Positions 17,607 to 60,880 of a DNA stretch of 64,000 bases are shown in pieces. Below the pieces are notes generated by a model that was not told where the DNA came from, did no database searches, and saw nothing but the letters and a program-made list of their open reading frames with translations. Made by a program: the position numbers and the translations under genes. Source of the stretch: Apostichopus japonicus (Eukaryota; Echinodermata; Holothuroidea; Aspidochirotida; Stichopodidae); assembly GCF_037975245.1 (NCBI RefSeq), contig NC_092569.1, forward strand, positions 15,869,501 through 15,933,500, written 5' to 3'. Numbering within the stretch: the first letter of the stretch is position 1; every line of letters starts with the position of its first letter.

Positions 17607-18476
<870 letters not shown>

Positions 18477-22100: not shown

Positions 22101-22667
22101 TTTGCCCAGACAGTTTAACATTTTCCCTCTTCCATCAAAATCTCAACAATCCGCGCCATTTATATAAAGATTCAACACAGGCGCGCTTGCTAACATGTTA
22201 AATCAGTAAACTTTACTTTTACGTTTATTCGTTTTCGGTATGTTCATTTTTGAAAACAAGATCACAGATGAATACAAAAAAAAAAAAAACATCACCTTAA
22301 CTTTCATGTTTTCTAGAAAAGTAGAGAGACAAAAAAGAAAAAGAAGAAAAGCCCATTGTGTTACTGTTTTGGGATGTATTTTTTTTACTGCATTGAATTT
22401 CAATGATTTTTTTATCAACTACTCCGGCACTACATATAGGAGCAACACAATAGTAATCAACCTATTAAATCAATCTTCAATGAATATTTCCAAATGTGTT
22501 ACGAAGTTATACCCTACTAACAATTGTCATGAGTGTAAGTCATTTGTTTTCTAGCTACTCATTGAAGTTATTTCATTAATACCCTACTGATGTATAGCCA
22601 CAGAAATATCCTATCGTCATTATAACGACAGACATTAAGAACTATAAAATAATCCAATCAAACTTAC
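19184..22667. other. Probable intron and 3' region of the minus-strand bHLH gene; no exon found
   Basis: The bHLH exon ends at a donor at 22667, so its last coding exon should lie to the left on the minus strand. In vertebrate TCF21 that exon begins TWPFMVAGK. I looked for the corresponding minus-strand pattern and did not find it here; it may be farther away or diverged. The words TCTACGGACACTTGG (near 20308) and GTGTCCGTAGACTC (near 20840) form a widely spaced inverted pair around about 520 bp, possibly an old repeat. Confidence 0.4.
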
Positions 22668-23249
22668 CAGCTTTACTGGATGAACAGATTCCTGTTCGTT
22701 TTCATTCTGTAGTATTCGCTGAAGATGGGCAATGTAACAAGCAGCTAACCTTAAAGTATCCAATTTAGACAATTTGGTATCATCGGGTACCCACGGCAGA
22801 CTTGTTTTCAGTTTTGTAAAAGCTTTGCTCAAAACTCTCATTCTACTACGCTCTCGTGCGTTAGCTGCGTTCCTCTGCGACGGCTTAATCGGCGCACGAG
22901 TTCGCGAACTCTTCTTCGAAACTCTGCCGCCGGTCAGTTTCTGTTTCCGCCTCCGTCGACGGGTCGTTTCTGTTTGCTCCCCTGTCTTCACTCCCTTCGG
23001 ATGAACCTGATCCTTCTCCGTCCCACTTGTCTCCTCCGACGAACTTGTTGCAAAGTCTCCATCTTGTCTCTGAAAGTAATCGAGATCTATCTCGAACGCT
23101 ACATCAATCGTATCATGGTCAACCGATAGCGAAGTTTTGAAACCATTGTAACCGAACTGTTCCGCTGTGAATGTGTGAGAATGTTGCGATAGAGGCTCGC
23201 CGAGCCCGTTCATGGGCATGGCGTAACAAGCTGCTAGCTCCGATGCCAT
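22668..23249 (-). CDS. TCF21: TCF21/musculin-type bHLH transcription factor, first coding exon (194 codons; 3' exon not found)
   Basis: Encodes a nuclear class II bHLH factor that would bind E-boxes as a heterodimer with an E-protein; vertebrate relatives control mesodermal and muscle progenitors. From ATG at 23249 there is an acidic Ser/Glu region (residues ~60-80), basic stretches (RRRRRKQK and KKSSRTR, ~97-118), then the bHLH at ~125-180: [39 protein letters not shown] and YIAHLQRIL. The residues and the following VHPVKL are diagnostic of TCF21/MSC. The frame stops being TCF21-like exactly at a GTAAGT donor after that Leu, in phase 0. In vertebrate TCF21 the coding intron falls at the same VNL/TWPF point. 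The frame is open upstream of this ATG, but that part is low-complexity Ile/Phe/Cys and likely intron or 5' UTR (acceptor-like GAAAACAG before 23276). TCF21 versus MSC cannot be separated from one exon. Confidence 0.9.
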
Positions 23250-23396
23250 TTCGGAGTGTAACTGCCTTCCTTCGCCTGTTTTCAATAATATAATAATAAT
23301 AAAATAGAAACAACAACAACTAGGGTCTAGGCCAATAGGAAAACAGAATATTGTTTGATCAGTATTTCTATGCGTACATTTCGTGACTACTACCAC

Positions 23397-25590
23397 AAGA
23401 TAAAAACACAGTCAAACACAGACAAATTCCATGCGTCATATTTATAAAAATAAAAATAAAAAAATTGCACGATGATCCAGCAATCCGCAATACTTGTATC
23501 TTTCTCATAGATGAAGTGATATGTAAAGCAATCGTATTATTCCAGTGACAGTTCCCGGGTTGAACTAGGCGTAGTCATTTCAGCTACTGCCAGAAAACAC
23601 TCCGTATATTATCTGTACGTAAATTGTTTCGATCTGTTTTCGTTTCAGATTCAAAAAAGTTAAAGTCAGAGACCGCTAAATAAACGACAAAATATGCAAA
23701 AGTCTCTAAATCGGTGAAGTGCCAGATTTTAAAGGAAGAAATTCATGCTCGTGTGTAATTGTTTGTGAACTGATCAATTGTTTTAAGTCGTTATCTTTAT
23801 AACGATTAACCACGGCCCTATTGCGTACGGTCAAACACGTGACAAACACGAACAAATTCGTGTACAAGGTCAAATGCTAATTTCTCCTCTGTAGTTCGTA
23901 AAGGGCAAAAAATGTTGCATCAAAACAGTTCCTTTAACATTTTAGTATAAATTTTAACACCTTTCAATTCCATTTGCTCACTGAAATAATATTTGATGTT
24001 TTCTCCAACTCTAATCATTTAAATGTTACAGTTGACGAAGCGTTTAAACTGGCACTACTGTATTCAACATTCTTTAGTTAACACTTCCCAGTTGTATTGT
24101 TGCTGGTCCGTTTATTGCTAAGAAGGTAATTGTTACGCTTTGATGAAAAATACTGCATATTTGTCTCTCTACTTGCATTTAATACAATGAAGCTCGTAAC
24201 TTGGATATCTGGATTTTTTTTATTTTAAACTATATTTTAATATCATTGTTTAAAAATTTGACAAACAATAAAAGATATTTGCTTGGAGATCGTCGTTTTG
24301 TAATTTAATAGCGGCGTTGGCCGTTTCGTAAAGAAACTTCATTGTTTCTCGATATGCAAAGGCTGCAGCTGTTACACATAATTAAATAGGAAAACAAATT
24401 TTCAAGAAAACTTGAGACAAAACAAAATTTCAAAGGAAAAACAATATAATGCACTTCAAGTCAGTCAATATGTTTGAGCAAGCCGTATTCCAGAAATTCA
24501 TGGGCAGAAGTCGCTTGGCTAATTTATTTGTTTCGCTGCTGTAAGATAGAAATGACCTCTGAAATGTTTTCGGTCTGCGCTGATCAGCAAATAAACACGT
24601 GAAGGAAATTGTTTTAGGTAGTTTCTACTTGCCTTTAAAAACTATCTCTCTAACGTTTCCTTGTAACTTCCCTGTGTTTGCTCTTACGTAAAACGCTATT
24701 TCCTGTATTGTTCTATGACATAATCTTCTTGGTGTCATTGAGAAACATGGAGAATGGTTTCATTTCCAATACGAAAACAGAAAAAAAAACGAAGATTTAA
24801 AAAAAAAGAAGATTGGCATCCATTTAATAAATATCAAACCGCGGGATATCCAACATTGGGGAACAAGAATATAAAAGTTAAGTGTTTCGGTGACATTAAA
24901 AATAAGGATAATCCGTTCATATTTCGAAGAAATTGAAGAAAATTCGAAGAAATCGAAGAAAGTTCGAAGAAATCCACAAAAGGTCCAACTATTGACAAAA
25001 CCATGGAATAGAAAACATAAGACTTTGTTAAGCTATAAGCTGAGGCATTTGATAAGGTAATGTTAACTGGTCGCCATAAAAGCGCAAATAAAACTGGGCG
25101 GTGCGGAATTTGAGAGTTTGCAACCGAGGGAGAAATGTATTTCCTCGTGCACCTTATAAAAAACCAGACATAAAAGAAGCAGTAAGAATTAGTATTTCAA
25201 AAATTTCTTGAGCAAAATCCTGAACTGAAGAATCACTGCCCGGCATTGAAAACAGGGCACAAATAGTTTTGATGAGCGAACGAGGTAGCTTATTTCGAGG
25301 TTATCCCGACTGGTCTAGTCTAACCTGGTCTAATCATTGCAATTCCGCATTACGCGTCGGAGAGCAAACGAGACCGGTTAAAGTTTTAAAAGAAAAGTTT
25401 GAACGCTTCAGCACTCAAAGTACGTGGTGATGGTGACCTTAAAGAAATAAAACCAGGGCAACGGGTGACATGCCCTGTCAGAATCTAGCCAATTGAACGT
25501 GAGTAATTTGGTAGATTTTAGGCGTTGGGGCGGGCATTCACCCGAGTGAAATGAGAGATTGACATACGGAAGTCTCTGAAGGAGCGAATG
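23397..25590. other. 5' flank of the bHLH gene
   Basis: AT-rich sequence with no recognised coding exon. An E-box CAGCTG lies near 24367, and a run of GAAGAAATTCGAAGAAA-type short repeats occurs at about 24925-24975. A promoter or 5' UTR exon is expected here but cannot be pinpointed. Confidence 0.4.
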
Positions 25591-28194: not shown

Positions 28195-28195
<1 letters not shown>

Positions 28196-28225
28196 CCGTA
28201 CCACTCGAGCGAAGTGATTCCGTTT
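28195..28225 (-). mobile_element. Fragment of the tRNA-like head found at 34.9 kb
   Basis: On the minus strand GAATCACTTCGCTCGAGTGG then TAC parallels GAATCACTGTGGTCGAGTGG then TAC at 34904-34882. Here the similarity stops at the (TA)n tract and the hammerhead part is missing. It is a truncated relative. Confidence 0.65.
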
Positions 28226-31200
28226 TGGCTACAGGTGTGTCAACGCCTATTAACTGGCAACTGGTGCTTTCGAATCATAAACGAAAAGCACTTCGACTTC
28301 ACGGAACTGATCACTCTTAACGGACTTTTCACTATTTTCGCAAAGATATCAAGGAATTTATCAGTGTCAACGCACAAAATAGTGCCAAGCCTTGAGGTAG
28401 GCTAGCTGAACCCACGTGTATGGGAGGAGCCTAATTTGATGTTTAATCCCCGTGAATAGCCTATTCGTTATCGTGATAAGAGGTCATATTACCGTATAAA
28501 AAACAAAAACACACAAAAACATACCACTTTGACACAAACTTGACTCTGTTATTCATAACACTGTATGGGTTTCTAATGAACAATTCGAATGGCTTAAATT
28601 GGATGAAACGTTTTACAAAAAAAAGATAAGAAAAACACGGTTATTGAACAATTTCCAACACACCCTTGACGTGCGTTATATGATTCGCTTTTGTAAAATT
28701 CAATGGGCTATTTTAAATTTTAACCGATTGAGTTCTGAGTGCAAACATCTTGTACATTGATCATACGAAATATCCCCCGCCGCCCTTCACCTCTACCCCG
28801 TCATTCCAAAAAATGAGGTCTTTGATTTACCGAACCCTAGTGACTGAAGGAGATCACTTTTCAAGTGGTTTTATGACGATTCGATATTAACTGTCATTAG
28901 CCTCTTTATTTCACCTCGTTCACCTAGTTTTAAGTAATAGTTTATGCTCTTAAAACCGAGATTTTACTCTTCAACTGAAGTCAACAAGAATGATCTGGTA
29001 TCTTTCAAAGTAGTTAAGGGTAAATCAAAGACAGCATTAGGTCTACTCAAGTGGCAGATACGTCAACAATCCGAATCGAGACTACAGATTTGACTTGACA
29101 ATAGTCATTTAATCCATGGGAGTTGCTAACAACTTCCTGTTATTACTAGACTATAGCTAACAATAGTTATCGATCGTTATTATTAATATGTTGATTTTGT
29201 ATGTTCTTCTCTGGTTATTGTCACAGTCGCAAATATAAAAAAAAAAGTATAAATCCGGTTAGTTCCAACGATTATCATCAAGACATGCGTTCTCCATATG
29301 CGGCACCCGAAAGCGTAATCGCCATACAATATTGCACTAGTCGGCTATTCCGATGAATTAAGGTGTATCTATTTATATATGATCTCTAGAGTAAGACAAA
29401 AATATGTCACCAAACAGGAATAACTTGGGCTATTTTTCGAAAATTATTCGCGTATAAATTCAACGTGGTTGTTGACCATTCCACATCATTACATTCCACA
29501 CCCATTTAATGCACGCAATGCCACTTTTATACAAATTATAACATCTTTCTCCGATGTTCTCGTACGTTGTATAGACGGGTGCTTGTTGAGCTGGCCCTGT
29601 CTCTGCCCGGTTCCCTCCTGTCTGGTGTCACTCTGCTACATTCTGGGTTGATAAACGACGTTTCTTGTTTGTGTGAACCGATAAATAAAGTTTCAACTTT
29701 GACGAGGAAATCCCCGGTTTGTTGGGGTGAAAATTCTTACGGTGCATGGCCGAGCGATGTGAGTCACAGGCTGAGCACGGATATCGGAAAGGCTTTGTGG
29801 CATGTGGAATATGAGTGGATATTAACAACGACTGTCGCTAAAAATGAGATAATGCCAATGACTGAGTCTCTTAAAGAGATTGCATTTCATGGTGGTGACG
29901 AAAACAAAATAGGTTAAGAAAAGAAAAGTAAATGCATGACCGCGTGAACTATCATGCAAAGTGTGAAAATGTGAGTATTTGTTTTATAGATATGCATAAC
30001 ATAATCTGATTTACCCGGCTAAGCTATATACACAGGAAAATACTTTTTTTGGAGGTTTGTTTCTAGTTTCTCATGGTTAAATGTCTCCGTTTATTTATAC
30101 TTATTATATTTGAATTATTATTATTATTTTTTTCAATTTATGTATTATTCCTTTGGCCATGCATCCGAAATTACTGGTGCGATTTGCTAAACTGTCATTT
30201 ACAGACTACATTTCAATGTACCGTGTGTGTCATCTAAGGGTTATATGGTATCCATGCATTGTGACGCATGCACTGCAAACTACAGTTACGGTACACAGGG
30301 AGGGAAGTTGCACTGACAAGAACCTGAAAGTTCGTGACCTCCTTCTTACTAAACGGGGTCACTGGTCCATTCATTCTCAGATCAGTGACACTCGACCGTA
30401 ATCACACAAAGCTAAATGGTCCCTTGAGCAACAGCTGGGGAGGGGGGGGTGGTGGAAATACTCCTGTATTCTAGGTATACGATCATAAATATACTCATAA
30501 TCGGTAGAAACGAATCCATCAATTTGTAACTTGTCTGGAGTAATTTCTTGAATGAACAATCGATACAGGGAAATTAATGACTGAGCAAATACATGTGTAG
30601 GCTGGCTCCGATCGCCATCTCGCTGAACAATAACGCTTGGGCGCTTTGAGAACTAACTTATCTCTGTGTAGAGGTTCTTCTGCGAAGAAGTTACAACTAC
30701 TAAGTCTGTCCTATAGGCATATCTGTGTTTTGCCGAGATCAAACGTTATGTTACTGCTGGCATTTACTGCAGGCCCGCGCTAATGCTAACAACATTTCTG
30801 TTATCCTACTCGTATAGCAATATAATTGATCCGAAGATATGACTGGTTGCTACATTTGGTTACAAAACAATTAATGATGTCATAATGTCCAATTCAGTTG
30901 CAAATGTTATGTTCTTCTTTCTCACATATTTACATCACATATATATCCGAAAATGCGGAGATATGGAATTTTCAAACTTTTGAGATTCTAAATACAGAAA
31001 CATTCTACTGTTACATAGAATAGTAGTTAAGCAAACTTTCAAATGTTATGATATTTTTAAGAAACACAAGAGGTTTATTATAGTGAAGGAATGCTTTCTT
31101 AATAACATTTGTCATTATGAGATATCGCAGAACAAGTGTATTATGCATTTCCTGGAGGAGGGAGGGTCTAAGCCACATAATAGGTTATATTCAACGAAAT

Positions 31201-33985: not shown

Positions 33986-34704
33986 ACTGGGGGACACCGC
34001 CTCCTCCAGGAGGGGGGTGTCCCCAAGTTCCCCCCAGGGGGTGTATACAATACATAAACAATACACGTATAAACAATACACGTATATACACGCACACGTT
34101 CACCGTACTGATTTCTGCAAATTGTTCTTACAATGATTGAGGGCGCTGTGCCGATATTCATTGCTTTACCTTTGTAAGGAAGCCTGTTAAGAACATAATA
34201 TTTAATATAATTTTTTTTTTAAAGTCAATGGTTTGCGAGATATTATTTGTTTGTGAAAATGAAGATTCCGATGATGATTCAATTGTCCAATTCTCTATAG
34301 CCAGTGGCAACATCTTAAACACAAGTTACTACAAGAATTGCAAAATATTATTCATTTCATCATATAGAGAAATTTGACAAAGAGTAGGGGATTACCTCTT
34401 CCCGTGGGTAAACTTAATGAAGAGAGTTATCCGTTCTAAACGCTAGTAGAACAAAGGATGCAGAGTCCACTAACCCCCTTCCATCAAGTTATTTGGCCTA
34501 CTCCTTACCACTGAATATGTCAACTTTCAGATTCAAATAATGAATCGAAGCAATACGAGTTTTTATCAGAATGTAGAATTTGGAGAGGCAATGATATTCT
34601 TTAGTGTTTTACAGTCTCCTTTCAACAGCTTTAGGTTTAGCATATACCGCACAGTGATCTATGATATCTATACATAGGTTTAGCATGTACCGTACAGTGT
34701 TCTA

Positions 34705-34708
<4 letters not shown>
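33986..34708. other. Intergenic, short local duplication near right end
   Basis: TTTAGCATATACCGCACAGT at about 34632 is repeated as TTTAGCATGTACCGTACAGT at about 34679, a ~48-bp tandem duplication next to the (TA)n tract. A G/C inverted pair lies at about 34000-34045. No gene was seen. Confidence 0.45.

Positions 34709-34771
<63 letters not shown>
34709..34771. repeat. (TA)n microsatellite adjoining the hammerhead element
   Basis: About 62 bp of pure TA, immediately 3' (on the minus strand) of the hammerhead-bearing repeat. Confidence 0.95.
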
Positions 34772-34773
<2 letters not shown>

Positions 34774-34789
34774 AAGAATAACACACCAG

Positions 34790-34848
34790 AAAAATTCCAC
34801 TTCACGACCGGTTTCGTCCTTTGGGACTCATCAGGCGAAGGTGGGAAT
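34790..34848 (-). ncRNA. Type I hammerhead self-cleaving ribozyme
   Basis: All core parts are present on the minus strand in order. CTGATGA lies at 34834-34828. Helix II is GTCC-CAAA-GGAC (34827-34816). GAAA lies at 34815-34812. Then comes CCGGTC (34811-34806), with predicted cleavage after the C at 34806. Helix I pairs GTGAAG (34805-34800) with CTTCGC just 5' of CTGATGA (six pairs including one G-U), then continues past single bulges (TG/CA, GGAAT/ATTCC). Helix III would be only ACCGGT, a palindrome with no loop. Such minimal helix III is known from hammerheads of Penelope-like elements and animal retrozymes, which cleave best as dimers. Expected role: self-cleavage of a repetitive transcript. 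No activity is shown here. Confidence 0.88.
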
Positions 34849-34933
34849 CTAACCCCCGAATATTGTGTCACGATCCGAAGTCTGTACCACTCGACCACAG
34901 TGATTCTACTGGAACACAGTATAATCACAGTAG
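34849..34933 (-). mobile_element. tRNA-like (Ser/Leu-type) head joined to the hammerhead
   Basis: Minus strand: CTGTGGTCGAGTGGTACAGA resembles an A-box/D-arm of tRNA-Ser or -Leu, and GGGGGTTAGATTCCCACC resembles a B-box/T-arm. The latter overlaps the 5' strand of hammerhead helix I. Together with 34771-34848 this looks like one small retroelement with an internal Pol III-type promoter and a ribozyme. Its left edge cuts the relic FReD exon of duplication copy B near 34934. Confidence 0.7.
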
Positions 34934-35031
34934 AATGCGCTGAAAACATTTCCCCTACAATGAATGAAAGGTTGATTCTGTAACCGCAAAGACGTAATGA
35001 TTTTCTCCGTTCGCTTTCTAGAGTGGTGTTT
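34934..35031 (-). repeat. Segmental duplication, copy B, distal part (including start of a FReD 3' exon)
   Basis: The minus strand continues copy A past the foldback insertion: AAAGCGAACGGAGAAAATCA and TTTGCGGTTACAGAATCAAC, then the acceptor-like CATTGTAG and GGAAATGTTTTCAGC. That is the start of the same FReD exon as at 4330, cut off by the tRNA-like/hammerhead element. Confidence 0.8.
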
Positions 35032-36893
35032 ACGGAATGCCAAATGTATCAAAAATGTCCAAAACTATATAAGCATGTCCAAAAAAATATAAGCATGTCC
35101 AAAAAAATATAAGCATGTCCAAAAAAATATAAGCATGTCCAAATTTATATAAACATATCGAAACTAATATAAGTATGTCCAAAAATAATATGATCATGCC
35201 CAAAATAATATGAGAGTGTCGAAAAATTATATGAACATGTCGAATGTAACTGCTAACTTCAACTTTTTAGTGAACATTTTGGCATCTGAATTCACGCCAT
35301 CTGTTGCAAAATATCCAAAAAAATATAAGCATGTCCAAATTTATATAAACATGTCGAAACCAATATGAGTATGTCCAAAAATAATGAGAGCATGTCCAAA
35401 ATAATATAAGAGTGTCGAAAGACTATATGAGCATGTCCAAAATATAAAAAAGTGTCGAAAAATAATACAAAAGTCTCGAGCGTAACTGCTCGATTCAACT
35501 TATAATGAACAGTCAGGCGTTTGAATTTTACGCCATATGTTCCAAATATCAAACTTTTTATTTTGGTATGCTGAAAACAAAAACACCATATCCAGCGTAA
35601 CTTAAGACGATATACAGTTCATCCATTACCGTATTAGTGTGTGTGTTAATATTTTAATGATATTTCGATCAAGAACGATTTTATTTTCGAGGAAATATTA
35701 GTTGAGTTGTTTCGTAGCGCGAGTGATCAACCTGTCCCCAAGGTGCTGTAACTATCAGTGAGTTTAATACGAAGAACCACTGTGTCCAACATTCCACGCG
35801 GTTTAATCAATAATATGTAGTTGGCGAGTTCTTCCCACGTTTCCATCTTGAAATTTAGTTAAAAGGTGAGAGTGAAGATTAAACGTTGAATACCCCTAAC
35901 CTAGGCTTATTTTTTTTTTAATTCTGGGCTAGTGTCCGACTTCGCCTGGTAACCGTAATTAAGTGTCACAATTTTCCGTTAAAAAAGTAACACATATAGT
36001 AGTTCATTTTCACTGTCAACGTACGCATGTGTGATAACTACTGTACGTTGTTAGCGCTTGTGCATGTTGTACGTACTTTCGCACGTGAACTTCTTTGCCT
36101 TCGCAACAATATATGAATAATCTCAGCACCTCTAGGCAGGGCGAAACCACTCACATTACGTAGGGATGTAAAAAGGAAAAATGTTAGGTGATGGTCTTGT
36201 TTTTACATATTTTGAATTATTTGCGTCACAAAAACAGAAGAATGTTTCAATAATATATTGTCATAATGATAACTATTGTGTCAGTTGATACAAATTACCT
36301 CCAAAGAAGGTATTGTAAGCTAATTTTTTTCGACATACCAATATAAAAGTTCGATATTTGAAACATTTGGCGTGACTTCAAACGCCAAAATGTTCATAAC
36401 AAAGTTGAAGTTAGCAGTTACACACGAGACTTTTATATTATTATTCGACACTCTCATATAATTTTGGGCGTGCTCATATTATATTTTGACATACTTATAT
36501 GTGTTTGGACATGCGCGTATTATTTTGGACATGCTCATATAGTTTTGACATGTCTATATAAATTTGGACATTCTCATATAAGTTTGGACATGCTTATATT
36601 TTTTTGGATATTTTGCAACATATGGCGTAACTTAAAACGCCAAAATGTTCAAAACAAAATTGAATTAGGCAGTTACATTTGTCCCTCTTGTATTATTTTT
36701 CGACATTCTTTTAATATGTTGGACATGCTCATATAGTCTTTCGACACTCTCATATTATTTTGGACATGCTCTTATTATTTTTGGACATACTCATATTAGT
36801 TTCGACATGTTTATATAAATTTGGACATGCTTATATTATTTTGGACATGCTTATATTGTTTTGGACATTTTTGAAACGTATGGCATGCCGTAG
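35032..36893. mobile_element. Foldback-type transposon with minisatellite-like inverted terminal repeats
   Basis: The left arm (about 35032-35560) consists of ~20-bp repeats such as ATAAGCATGTCCAAAAAAAT with GTGTCGAAAAATTATATGA variants and two spacer blocks (AACTGCTAACTTCAAC ... ACGCCATCTGTT). The right arm (about 36340-36893) is its reverse complement in the same order. The tips match: ACGGAATGCCAAATGTATC versus, on the other strand, ACGGCATGCCATACGTTTC. The centre (about 35570-36330) is unique, with no transposase seen. Flanks GTGGTGTTT (35023-35031) and GTGTTGTTT (36894-36902) form a 9-bp duplication with one mismatch. Copy A of the host duplication keeps the uninterrupted site. This is the structure of Drosophila FB and sea urchin TU elements. 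Confidence 0.88.
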
Positions 36894-41732: not shown

Positions 41733-42334
41733 TACATATATACATAAGTATCATTGACAATGCGCAGCAGAATACTATGCATAAGTTGCACGTTATTCTA
41801 TTATGTACAGTGCATACACAAGCATTTTGACGTAATCGTTGTTTGCATCTGGAATATCAAACTTTGACCTCCTTAAAAGAATATCAAACAATACTGACGA
41901 ACGGGTAATTCCATTAGCTTCGTTTTTAGATGTTTGTTGTATTTGTTTACTGTATTCATGTACGTGTATTACGTGTATTTGCAGCCCTACAGTCAGTGGA
42001 GTAACAGGTAATTTTAAGCTTAAAATTTATGTACAGGTTATAACAGGTTGAATCGTATGAGTTAGCTGATATTGTTTATTTGTAATATTCTTGCTTGTTC
42101 GTTATTTGGTGTAGCAGAATTGTACTGTGTACGCATTAACTCATATGAGACTACATCTGTTTGGCTCAGATACAATTCGAATGCGATTTGAAATATATGG
42201 GTTGTATTTCGGTAATTGTTGTTGCTAAAGTTGACGACGTTTACCATATTTCAACCAGGTGAAGACAGTTATTGTATGTATTTTCTATTATGGGTAATCT
42301 GTAAACAAAATAATGAAGTTGCAATGTATTTGAG
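41733..42334. other. 5' flank of the IFIT-like gene
   Basis: No coding exon was recognised. A 5' UTR exon is expected, because the first coding exon begins just after an acceptor-like ATCATAG. It could not be located. No interferon-stimulated-type element was confidently seen. Confidence 0.4.
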
Positions 42335-42379
42335 TTGAGTTATAAATACGCTCTGATATCACTTTTATTAATCATAGAC

Positions 42380-45300
42380 ATGGCAACGACAGAAAACTGG
42401 TGGCAAAACTTACCTTGCCATTTTCATCCATCATGGCGTCTGGACGAGATAACGAATCTTGATCTCCTACAACTGAAACGCAAAGCTCAAAATAATGCAG
42501 AAGACTCGATGGTAGTGGAACACAAGATATATCAAGCCTTTCTCGAGTATCCGTGTGGGAAATTCTGCAACAATAAGAAACCTAGTCTTACTAAAGCCCT
42601 GAAATTTCTCGAGCAGGCGGACGAATATATAACAAATACTTTAAGGGAAAACAACGAAGCTAGGATTGGCTACGGAATCGTGATTAATTGTTTTCGCATG
42701 TGGAAAGATCCACATCGAGTTAAATATGAAGATACATTGAGAACTCTGAACGAAGAGAAGGAGAATTTCCCAAAACACGAACATTACATATTTGCTACAC
42801 GTGCATACAGTCTTTCCCGTTTGGGGCCAAAATGGATCGAAGAATCACAAGTATTTTTTGATAAGGCATTGAAAGGATATCCCGATAACTGCCAGTGGCT
42901 GTTCGGAAAGGCCTTGATGTTCGGAAGAAGATCACGACTATCAATTGGTAGAGATGGTTGGACCAAAGATGCCATTAAGAAAAAGCAAGAAAACTTGAAA
43001 TCGGAAAAGGATATATTGCAAACCATATTACAAAAAGAACCCGATAATAGTCTTGTCAAAGTTTATATCGGTGAAGTGTTATTACTCTTAGGTGAGTCCG
43101 AGGATGCAGAGTTATATATTGCAGAAGCTTTAGCATGTAGCCAAAATGATGCCAAAGTTGCTGAAAAGGCAGGTTCAGTTTATAGAAAACTTGGCAAAAT
43201 TGATGTTGCGGAAGATATTTTTGAGGACCAACTTACATGGAAGGAAACATCTGAGGCGCATTTTCAGCTGGGCAAACTTAAGAAAGACCGCGTTAACACT
43301 AAAGACACAACTAAAAGTGAGGAATATCTTAGACAAGCCTTAGTTCATTTCACCAAAGGACATGAAATAGATCCTGCCCATAACCCTTGCTTGATAGGAA
43401 AAGCTGAGATGACAGCAAAAGTTGGATATTATGAAAAAGCTAAACATGTATTCACAGATATATTTGAACAAGAAATGAATGGTATGCTATCTGCTGGAGA
43501 TAGTCTATATGTTTACACGGTTGCTGCAAACTTAGGCCAAAGGTTACTTGAGAAAGTCTTCGACATGGACGAAATTGTCAATATCTACTACAGATTCCTT
43601 ACCCTTTGCACCATTCCTAAAAGAAGAAAACAAATCATTAAAAAATTAAAAAAAATAAGCGAAAACGTAAGCTCTGTACAATTTCAACTGTATGCAGTAT
43701 TCAAAATGGCGGAACTGAAAAGACGTTTCGGTTCCTACTGCGAAGCAATACAACTTTACGAGCAGTTACTCGACCTCAAGAATGGTGACGGAGAGCTCGT
43801 TAAAGTAAGGGAGATCAGAACCGGATTGTCTCTTGCACAGGCGAAGAAAAGACTCAACGAAGGAATTGCAGACAATAAGGAAGACGTACTGGAAATATAC
43901 TCATTGGTTTCCTCAACGATCGAGCAAGGAAGTCTCGAGGGTAGCTATCTATTTGCAAAGGCAGCTGAAAACCTACGTTCGATTTTTTTTCACATAAACT
44001 TAGGTATCCCTTGTACACTTGCACGGATAAAGTTAATCCTAGACGAGAAAGTCGACATATTGCATGCTGATTTTGAAGTAAAAGGTGACGACGATATCGC
44101 CGAAATGATTCATATAGACATGAAAAGGGATTTAATTAGAAATCTGGTGGAACAATTTTGCACTTACGATACTGGTCTTGCAGATAAAATGCAAACGAAA
44201 AACGACGGTTTCCTACTGAAGGTTTACGGCTCACTAGAGGGACTTCGAAGAAAACGCTTGGATTTTGAGTTGGAACTCTTCAAGGCCCACATCGATGGCA
44301 AATCATGGAATGATAATTGCGCGCATACGGCAACCGCAGTACTTCTACAATCAAGGGTAATACTGGACCATGCTATTCATTTATATCAGGTAAAAATGTC
44401 ATGTTTTTTTTTTCTAAATGAAACAACTCGAAGAGAACTACATTTGTTGAAACAAATCTGCTTTATATTGGACCAAAAACCAAGATAAGCATATGAACGT
44501 AATGTACTTTAACCTCTAAATGTTAAGCCTCTACAACTCAATTTGTCAACACTTGTGCATGACAGCTAAATTAAATATTAAACGAGGTCCTACCAAACTG
44601 CTAAAAAGGCTGTTTCGTCATTTCAATATTGACGAGATATGACTGCACATACAAAAGAGGGTACGTGTTGTTTTTCGATTGAATATGGTTGTCCTAACAA
44701 TATAAACTCCTACCTGAATGTAATCACATAATAAACAGTATATTTTTAATTCAAATCATATAATGTTCATTCACAAGAGGGAAGTATATTTATACTCCTA
44801 AATTAGATAGAAGTACTTCGAAAGGAACCAGGGCGTTCCATCTTTCCCATACATTTCGATTGGAAACAAGCATCTGTGGACAAGGAAACTACGAAGAAAA
44901 AGCTACGTGGATGGTGTGCGAGTGCATTTCCAGAATATAGTATGCCGCCAGACGTTTTTGAACATCTGCTCCAGGTAAACACTAATGTATAAAGAGAAAA
45001 GTTCACTGTATAAGAATTATCGCATATACTACAAAATGCTTAATGCTTGGAACGCTCCTTATCGCTAAATTGTCGACGAGGCCATTTTTCTCCTCAGTAT
45101 ACAGGCCTGAATGTTAATGTTACCACTGGACTAGCCTGAATGTTAATGTTACCATTGTACAGGCTTGAATGTTAATATTTACCATTATACAGGCCTGAAT
45201 GTTAATGTTACCATTGGACAGGCCTGAATGTTCATGTTTACCATTATACAGGCCTGAATGTTAATGTTACCATTGCACAGGCATGAATTTTAAATGTTTA

Positions 45301-46567
45301 CCATTGCACAAGCCTGTATGTTAATGTTACCATTGTAGAGGCCTGAATGTTCATGTTACCATTGTACAGGCCTTAATGATACTGTTACCATTGTTCATGC
45401 CTTAATGCTAATGTTACCATTGTACAGGTCCGAATGTTAATGTTACCATTGTACAGGCCTTAATGTAAATGTTACCATTGTACAGGCCTGAATGTTAATG
45501 TTACCATTGTACAGGCCTGAATGTTAATGTTACCATTGTTCATGCCTTAATGCTAATTTTGCCATTGTACAGGTCCGAATGTTAATGTTACCATTGTACA
45601 GGTCCGAATGTTCATGTTTACCATTGCACAGGCCTGAATGTTCATGTTTACCATTGTACAGGCCTGAATGTTAATGTTACCATTGTACAGGTCCGAATGT
45701 TAATGTTACCATTGTACAGGCCTTAATGTTAATGTTACTATTGTACAGGCCTGAATGTTAATGTTACCATTGTACAGGCCTGAAGTTAATGTTACCATTG
45801 TATAGGCCTTAATATTAACGTTACTATTGTTCAATACCATTGCACGACACTTATTATTGAAAGAAGAAAGGCTTCACCAACTTACTGAAAATAAAAGTTA
45901 CTTTGAATGATTAACTATGTCGCATTTAAGCACAGTAAATTATACAATAATACGGTCCTACAGTCCATAACATCGATAACTCGCTAAAATAAGCTCGATC
46001 GAGTATGTAATTTCACTTTGAATTGCTAAAATGTTATTTCAGTATATAACAGTATGAAGTTTTGCTGTTGAGTATCATATCAATTTGTTTTGTCGCATTT
46101 CACGTACAACTGTGCCCGTCCCCCGCAAACGCAAATCCCGTTCGAACGAAAAATGTACAAATATGAACTTTGGAGCGCTCATTTGATGTCGTACATGACT
46201 GATATTATTTGATACATGGATTTTCATATACACCCAAGTGAACACTACTGATAGGGGTGGGGAAAATTAACCATGAAAGTTGTACATAGGGACCTGGATG
46301 GATTTCCAGGTCATGTTTTTTTCTGCAGTGAACAATATGGTTGGACTTTAGACCACGCGGTGTTTAATAGAAAATGTCTGGATTGAGATAATACATAGCT
46401 GACTGAGTACGTCATAGTGTAAACTAGCCAATGATGTCATTTTCTTTTACATTTCTGACACTCCCATATAGGGACTTAACCCAATGACAAACCCTTGCAA
46501 TAAAAACGCCCAAAAATGAATATTCATAGTCACGCTCGTCTCGCCTTGAATACCCGTGCACAGTGCA

Positions 46568-58492: not shown

Positions 58493-58568
<76 letters not shown>

Positions 58569-58580
58569 AATATATATATT
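58493..58580. repeat. (TA)n microsatellite before Penelope-like fragment 1
   Basis: About 85 bp of TA with GTATA and AAATA breaks, placed exactly between GCTACGGTGGTATGTA and the coding fragment. The copy at 60295-60333 has the same placement. Confidence 0.95.

Positions 58581-60290: not shown

Positions 60291-60294
<4 letters not shown>
59897..60294 (+). repeat. Duplicated Penelope-associated block, upstream part (copy 2)
   Basis: Shorter relative of 57170-58492 with the same landmarks in order, ending GCTACGGTGGTATGTA at the (TA)n tract. Confidence 0.75.

Positions 60295-60333
<39 letters not shown>
60295..60333. repeat. (TA)n microsatellite before Penelope-like fragment 2
   Basis: About 38 bp of pure TA after GGTGGTATGTA. 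Confidence 0.9.
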
Positions 60334-60338
<5 letters not shown>

Positions 60339-60416
60339 AATTGTTCGATACAGGTGATAAACGCCGACAGTGGAATTACGACCTTCCTTACCGGTTTAGA
60401 ACCTCTGGACATACAA

Positions 60417-60456
60417 TCAGCGTCCATGGCCTAGTTGGTTAGGGTGTCCGCGTGAG
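60417..60456 (+). mobile_element. tRNA-like 5' half
   Basis: CATGGCCTAGTTGGTTAGGG then TGTCCGCGTGAGGG resembles the D-arm/A-box and anticodon arm of a tRNA. There is no T-arm, as the sequence runs straight into the Penelope-like fragment. Probably the head of a SINE-like repeat, not a tRNA gene. Confidence 0.5.
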
Positions 60457-60462
60457 GGAATT

Positions 60463-60880
60463 TTGGCCTGCACAAAGGCATTCAAACCGAAACGTGGCAA
60501 ATCACCCACGAAGGAAGAATTGGCTGAATTGATGCAACTAATCTGGTATTTGGCAACAAACCGACTAGCTCCAAATTCATGGCACCGCAATGGGTACCAA
60601 AATCACACCGTCTTGTGCAATTTTTTTGATGGAAACCCTCTTGAAGGAATTTCTATCCCGACAAAACTTCAAACCACACACGTGGTTTCGTTTCATTGAC
60701 GATATCTCCATGATATGGACCCATGGCTAGGCAAATCTTAAACTCTTCATTGATTACATAAACTCGTTTCATCACACAATCAAATTTACTGCAGATTTTT
60801 CTGAATGTGACGTTCACTTCCTGGACACCACTGTGACCCTCAAAAATGGTTCACTAAAAACACATGCATATAAATGCAAT
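60463..60880 (+). mobile_element. Penelope-like element reverse transcriptase fragment 2
   Basis: Better preserved than the first. Frames give KEELAELMQL, HGTAMGTKITPSC, LLKEFLSRQNFKPHTWFRFI, DDISMIWTHG, an in-frame TAG, then ANLKLFIDYINSFHHTIKFT and ADFSECDVHFLDTTVTLKNG. The motif order is that of Penelope-like RTs. The interrupted frame and missing ends show it is inactive. Confidence 0.8.

Follow-up and report, generated by a model that had tools for sequence, protein, structure and literature searches.

The 64-kb window analysed here (contig C9:15869501-15933500 of a 671.6-Mb assembly) contains a worn copy of a short, repetitive mobile element. The copy lies on the minus strand and combines a type I hammerhead ribozyme with A and B boxes resembling those of an RNA polymerase III (Pol III) promoter. 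Elsewhere in the genome the element recurs as a 341-nt monomer, which we number with the base that follows the ribozyme cut as position 1. The features of the window copy, together with a second, decayed relative, are as follows.

34757-34912, minus strand: copy of the hammerhead element, in which monomer positions 234-341 (34912-34806) are joined to positions 1-50 (34805-34757) in a BLAST alignment to the monomer of the relative L083.
34800-34840, minus strand: type I hammerhead core (Rfam RF00163), with predicted cleavage after 34806.
34887-34897, minus strand: A-box-like TGGTCGAGTGG of a putative type 2 Pol III promoter (from the sequence).
34844-34854, minus strand: B-box-like GGTTAGATTCC, the 3′ half of which is the candidate 5′ strand of outer stem I (sequence, 76-copy alignment and HH9 alignment on L083).
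34793-34798, minus strand: GGAATT, the candidate 3′ strand of outer stem I (sequence; helix 1 is 94.1% paired across copies).
34707-34771, no strand: (TA)n tract of 65 bp at the 3′ junction (Tandem Repeats Finder, 32.5 copies).
28195-28258, minus strand: truncated, degenerate relative corresponding to monomer positions 211-265, which runs into (TA)n (BLAST of the monomer against the window).

Rfam Hammerhead_1 (RF00163) matches the minus strand at 34840-34800 with 38.6 bits, above the gathering score of 34 (E 3.2e-6 over the whole window), and is the sole gathering-level match in the 64-kb window among 4227 Rfam families. The CTGATGA core, the GTCC/GGAC helix II, GAAA, ACCGGT and GGTC are all present when the sequence is read directly, as the sequence-only reading of this stretch had claimed, and the predicted site of self-cleavage agrees with the position given there, after 34806. 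GATTCC of the B box (34849-34844) can pair with GGAATT downstream of the cut (34798-34793) to form an outer stem I, and the HH9 model aligns this longer stem I on L083 with 40 bits, below the HH9 gathering score of 52. Judged by this pairing, the B box and the ribozyme stem I have bases in common, in agreement with the overlap of B box and helix I proposed earlier. In addition, a TTTTT run (34794-34790) overlaps GGAATT of outer stem I and could serve as a leaky Pol III terminator.

TGGTCGAGTGG fits the Pol III A-box consensus. The B box of the window copy, GGTTAGATTCC, is one base off GGTTCGATTCC, the form carried by most relatives in the 76-copy alignment. With TGGTCGAGTGG and the family form GGTTCGATTCC, whose starts are 43 nt apart, the element presents both boxes of a type 2 promoter. 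ARAGORN detects no tRNA in the 64-kb window or in six relatives, and Rfam gives no tRNA match at E up to 10 in 34500-35200 or at E up to 5 in L083. Therefore, the "tRNA-like" head consists of promoter boxes only; of the tRNA-Ser/Leu-like head described earlier, the A box and the B box (one base off) stand, and no tRNA fold is recognised.

The extent of the copy also differs from that first drawn. The 5′ limit had been placed at 34935, but most matches to other copies begin at query base 24, and we therefore place it at 34912. At the opposite end, clear family sequence (monomer positions 1 to about 34) stops near 34771 and gives way to (TA)n, the TA tract beginning at +34. The two segments of the window copy are 90.7% and 88% identical to the L083 monomer. 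A compact unit with (TA)n as a component had been suggested: a repeated element it is, but the window copy is a piece of the 341-nt monomer, and the (TA)n appears to belong to the target or junction and not to the element. The relative noted at 28195-28225 is real and truncated, although its extent was underestimated, two short and weak BLAST matches (E 0.003 and 0.023) carrying it to 28258; no hammerhead is found within 28195-28258.

The element belongs to a family with many copies. A search with the reported stretch scored the best 40 of 984 first-look candidates, and a search with the hammerhead model scored the best 74 of 66,307; the latter gives at least 59 genomic matches among the 74 scored candidates, 50 of them above the cut-off, and no match in 14 control genomes. 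The region upstream of the hammerhead is also matched in 28 of 30 loci fetched by the hammerhead (some of them local duplicates, and with the match beginning after the A box in L022), the other two, L024 and L048, having no match there. A strict pattern that joins the A box to the hammerhead, and in which the nine A-box bases GTCGAGTGG are fixed by construction, has 97 + 85 = 182 genomic matches, with 0 in the reversed control. The expectation that genomic copies keep promoter and hammerhead together is thus borne out. A chance hammerhead is ruled out by the RF00163 E-value and the 182 strict matches. Selection for an intact core need not be invoked: 41 of 50 distinct copies chosen on their 5′ half alone still pass a script test of the 3′ half.

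Tandem copies define the monomer. The spacing is exactly 341 nt at three loci, one of them a trimer headed by an inverted piece, and 337 and 322 nt at two others; many copies, the window copy included, are single pieces. On the monomer, the A box starts at 249 and the B box at 292, and CTGATGAG starts at 312; the promoter boxes stand directly upstream of the ribozyme. The monomer, its dimers and the trimer have the make-up of metazoan retrozymes (a non-coding unit of 170-400 nt, a type I hammerhead and tandem arrangement), and 341 nt is too short for an open reading frame with reverse transcriptase (RT) and GIY-YIG domains. Separately, L017/L074 (C5:1.759 Mb) consists of tandem units of about 157 bp that hold the hammerhead and the next 50 nt and lack the promoter part.

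The 3′ ends of the copies fall at two places. One monomer was compared by BLAST with 100 loci, and the 137 chained matches were reduced to 114 after deduplication and to 105 of at least 60 nt. Among these 105 pieces, 57 end at 41-50 and 19 at 81-90; the remaining 29 are spread out, 8 of them in a small group at 21-40 and 6 in another at 71-80. As TATATAT is native to the monomer at 44-50, we also measured the distance to the first (TA)≥5. In 95 junction copies it begins at +42 to +44 in 23 and at +75 to +85 in 21 (three of the latter, L015, L061 and L062, arrive at +81 by other routes), and 15 of the 95 have none inside 140 nt. A strict genome-wide pattern for the long end finds 22 places, with (TA)n exactly at +81 in 14, a figure that the pattern's own anchor favours. 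A pattern of cut plus (TA)n has 63 forward matches; its reverse count of 528 is the same places again and is unused. The two ends are about 37-38 nt apart, consistent with the optional tail of 30-40 nt in Penelope-like elements (PLEs). (TA)≥5 occurs inside 60 nt in 81 of the 105 pieces, compared with 3.3% of 60-bp stretches drawn at random from the window, and at the junction in 21 of 25 long-end pieces. In addition, 79 distinct pieces cross the ribozyme junction from upstream of position 285, partly by selection, as the searches required the ribozyme. Because these pieces span the junction, the templates were probably uncut or re-joined RNA.

Inverted neighbours, taken as inverted pairs when the gap is within 60 nt, were sought at 84 loci. 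There are 21 head-to-head pairs and 0 tail-to-tail pairs, at 20 of the 84 loci. Six pairs are unclassed as to ends; 13 of the 15 classifiable pairs are discordant, with one long and one short end, the exceptions being L057, with two long ends, and one L014 pair, with two short ends. Single copies (41 short, 14 long, 11 other) lead one to expect 38% discordance (p 1.5e-4, the end classes for this test having been defined after the ends were seen). With one of the two L014 pairs kept, discordance is 12 or 13 of 14.

The genome harbours PLEs of like geometry. A search for GIY-YIG scored the best 150 of 626 first-look candidates and gives at least 37 genomic matches among those scored. At L101, RVT_1 and GIY-YIG are both recognised in a frame of 910 aa; the locus also shows a direct repeat of 971 bp, an inverted piece that measures at least 428 bp (the stretch ends inside it) and a (TA)n end. 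The PLE 3′ end lies at (TA)n in all six of the 37 places that were read (L101-L106), five of which belong to one PLE family and L102 to another. The main PLE family carries GAAACGTC^GTG near its 3′ end. Counted after GAAACGTC, its short ends meet (TA)n near +50 at 23 places, exactly so at 18, and its long ends near +81 at 23 places, exactly so at 17, with 0 matches in reversed controls. PLE ends paired within 8 kb are head-to-head in 7/7 cases and discordant in 7/7, although two of these pairs, both on C16 and equally spaced, may be one duplication. At L108, retrozyme and PLE ends flank a TA-rich stretch, the retrozyme meeting TA at about +16, which makes it not a clean example. A separate observation concerns the second PLE family: L102 (C20:1889900-1890650), with its (TA)n end, contains a hammerhead-like string (CTGACGA...CGAAA, or CTGACGA...GTTCGAAAGCTT) that Rfam does not report.

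Taken together, we judge the family to consist of animal retrozymes that carry a Pol III-type promoter and are mobilised as non-autonomous PLEs, with a probability of about 0.73. In the mechanism that we propose, transcription of the 341-nt monomer would be driven by its tRNA-type Pol III promoter, which immediately precedes and partly overlaps the type I hammerhead. The template RNA would span the hammerhead junction, being uncut, multimeric or re-circularised after self-cleavage. A PLE reverse transcriptase/GIY-YIG endonuclease would take up this RNA in trans and cut (TA)n tracts, and reverse transcription would begin inside the RNA, at either of two sites that lie about 43-50 and about 81 nt past the ribozyme cut. 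With both sides of the break extended, head-to-head pairs would result in which one side carries the longer tail. A more detailed description, which we favour with somewhat less assurance, is that of a Penelope-mobilised short interspersed nuclear element (SINE): a Pol III-promoted retrozyme with a hammerhead and two fixed RT start sites that the GIY-YIG protein of a PLE reads in trans, and with a B box that doubles as an outer stem I arm.

Several results weigh against mobilisation by PLEs or soften the evidence for it. Rfam detects no hammerhead in the PLE loci, at E up to 5 in L101 and up to 10 in L102-L106, and the main PLE family by eye retains only the hammerhead half GAAACGTC. The stretch after the cut has no detectable homology between the element and one PLE family (658 of 2000 shuffles align equally well), and TGCTAC(A/G)CA at +64/+63, spotted post hoc, is the sole stretch common to both. 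The short ends differ, at +43 to +50 in the element and +50 in the PLE, and the native TATATAT, which extends to +50, blurs the short end of the element. By eye, none of the 37 listed GIY-YIG places is near a listed hammerhead place (the 59, and part of the 182), so that an autonomous PLE with the same hammerhead or tail is not seen among them, no search having been aimed at the tail. In the covariation count over 76 copies, the fold is no better supported than in shuffles, which equal the observed figure of 96.1% standard pairing in 1367 pair cells. Pol III starts transcription just upstream of the A box. The 5′ ends of the copies are broadly spread, with 9 of 66 single copies ending at 228-240, 9-21 nt before the A box at 249 (2.5 expected if uniform), and 6 of 38 in a pattern-chosen set (1.4 expected if uniform). 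This excess favours the mechanism proposed above, but it is modest and was noted post hoc; L061 and L062, both among the nine, probably represent a single locus that was duplicated, and the ranking of the first loci followed their likeness to the window copy, which itself ends at 234.

The element might instead be a common tRNA-type SINE that ends in a (TA)n microsatellite and is mobilised by a long interspersed nuclear element (LINE), with the hammerhead incidental. The A and B boxes stand in the usual order with starts 43 nt apart, short 5′-truncated copies are followed by (TA)n, and the window holds other (TA)n-linked repeats with tRNA-like heads, all as expected of such a SINE. However, movement by a LINE does not account for two discrete 3′ ends within the monomer together with 341-nt tandems, for 21 head-to-head against 0 tail-to-tail pairs with discordant tails, or for the like pattern in the resident PLE family, and, no search having been aimed at a LINE of matching 3′ end, we consider it unlikely. 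A slightly less probable alternative is a retrozyme whose RNA, self-cleaved and circularised, is copied round the circle by an enzyme of another kind; the promoter boxes would then be due to chance. The type I hammerhead and the tandem 341-nt monomers, up to three units long, agree with this, as does the abundance of circular RNAs of 170-400 nt from animal retrozymes described in an excerpt of PMC7229834. As regards the template, copying from a circle is compatible with mobilisation by a PLE. On its own, however, it leaves the one-sided tails and the likeness to PLE ends unexplained, and an 11-base B-box match next to an A box is improbable by chance (an estimate, not a computed value). Satellite-like or segmental duplication of a dead repeat, with no retrotransposition, fits some local duplicates (C1:12.105-12.120 Mb, L036-L039; C9:34.9-35.6 Mb, with identical listed stretches) but is very improbable for a family whose copies are spread over many contigs and differ in their 5′ ends, with flanks that are unrelated by eye.

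The window contains further repeats and genes. The repeat at 17607-18371 has a tRNA-like head (CTCAGCTGGTAGCAC), tandem 95-bp copies between (TA)n tracts and inverted copies nearby, and may be a further (TA)n-targeted short element. Two mutually similar (TA)n-linked repeats lie at 58494-58579 and 60291-60337, the second of which weakly and briefly matches the head and 3′ part of the element. A separate repeat at about 60340-60470, also present in the flanks of L003, L009 and L014, has a tRNA-like segment (GTCCATGGCCTAGTTGGTTAGGGTGTCCGCG and related forms) adjoining (TA)n. Arrays of a 20-bp GGACATGCTTATAT-type repeat occupy 35031-35580 and 36324-36892, facing each other as inverted copies, 77.7% identical over 573 columns; 45100-45830 is a tandem repeat of 29 bp in 25 copies. 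Pfam identifies a TPR-repeat frame of 723 aa at 42317-44488 (plus strand), which is presumably IFIT-like, and a basic helix-loop-helix (bHLH) frame at 22635-23411 (minus strand), which we take to be TCF21/musculin-like. Outside the window, several COX1 pieces lie at C29:14745-31219, on a contig other than the 16.1-kb C35, and represent nuclear mitochondrial insertions or a second mitochondrial contig.

The enzyme that spreads animal retrozymes is not established, PLEs having been proposed earlier from co-occurrence and shared hammerheads. If correct, a Penelope-mobilised SINE would provide the helper that has long been sought for animal retrozymes, as well as a class of SINEs that uses PLEs, not LINEs. 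The copies bear the signs of PLE reverse transcription, with two fixed starts and head-to-head pairs that have one tail, and a PLE family of like geometry resides in the same genome, so that the question of the helper becomes one for a direct biochemical test. The candidate Pol III promoter, which shares bases with the ribozyme, would tie transcription and self-cleavage to one sequence. In a literature search of titles and the openings of abstracts, we recognised no report of Penelope-type ends in retrozymes or of an echinoderm hammerhead element.

The comparison with known systems draws on excerpts of the papers cited. A non-autonomous, ribozyme-bearing, SINE-like family, as the sequence-only reading proposed, is right in kind, and its genomic copies are many, though the kind is already known; what is new is the anatomy and the evidence on the helper machinery. 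Hammerheads occur in the tRNA-related, SINE-like elements Sm-alpha/Sj-alpha of Schistosoma (Ferbeyre 1998, Laha 2000, as described in PMC2770079 and PMC8490949). Likened by description and not by sequence, these share with the present element short length, high copy number, SINE-like character, a type I hammerhead and a relation to tRNA (PMC2770079, PMC8490949). They probably come from another phylum than the host of the element, and Sm-alpha-like SINEs are tied to tRNA-Gln (PMC2770079), whereas the present element has no recognised tRNA fold; the excerpts of PMC2770079 and PMC8490949 do not mention Penelope-type ends for Sm-alpha. A schistosome host, which Sm-alpha had brought to mind, was set aside because the mitochondrial COX1 of the genome reads AAA as Asn at conserved sites and its protein has a more echinoderm than flatworm look; echinoderms and flatworms both use this code (table 9), which by itself leaves either group possible.

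The metazoan retrozymes without long terminal repeats (Cervera and de la Pena 2020, PMC7229834) resemble the element as non-coding repeats, about 170-400 nt long, that have type I hammerheads at their borders and are arranged in tandem, and PLEs are already named there as strong helper candidates. According to an excerpt of a review (PMC7761336), retrozymes seem promoterless and metazoan ones carry no motif that identifies a helper. In contrast, the present element has Pol III-type boxes, and its ends point to PLEs.

The closest likeness in geometry is to the PLEs themselves. PAc of Anolis (PMC11167929) and Penelope of Adineta (PMC3846280) share with the element tandem units, head-to-head inverted partners, an optional tail of 30-40 nt and an AT-rich target; in rotifer PLEs, the tail is optional on one inverted repeat (pLTR), and the inverted repeats are mostly head-to-head (PMC3846280). 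Unlike PLEs, the element has no RT/endonuclease frame, possesses Pol III-type boxes and is far shorter. According to Frangieh et al. 2024 (PMC11167929), a purified PLE begins reverse transcription at two internal sites, the 30-40 nt tail of genomic copies is the stretch between these two sites, the enzyme cuts and extends both target strands with a preference for AT-rich DNA, and insertion in vitro needs no ribozyme cleavage. In PAc, reverse transcription starts at a distance past the hammerhead cut that is similar to that in the element: the ribozyme cut lies 26 nt, and the RT start 111-118 nt, into the open reading frame (PMC11167929), which by our arithmetic places the start at +85 to +92 after the cut, near the long end of the element.
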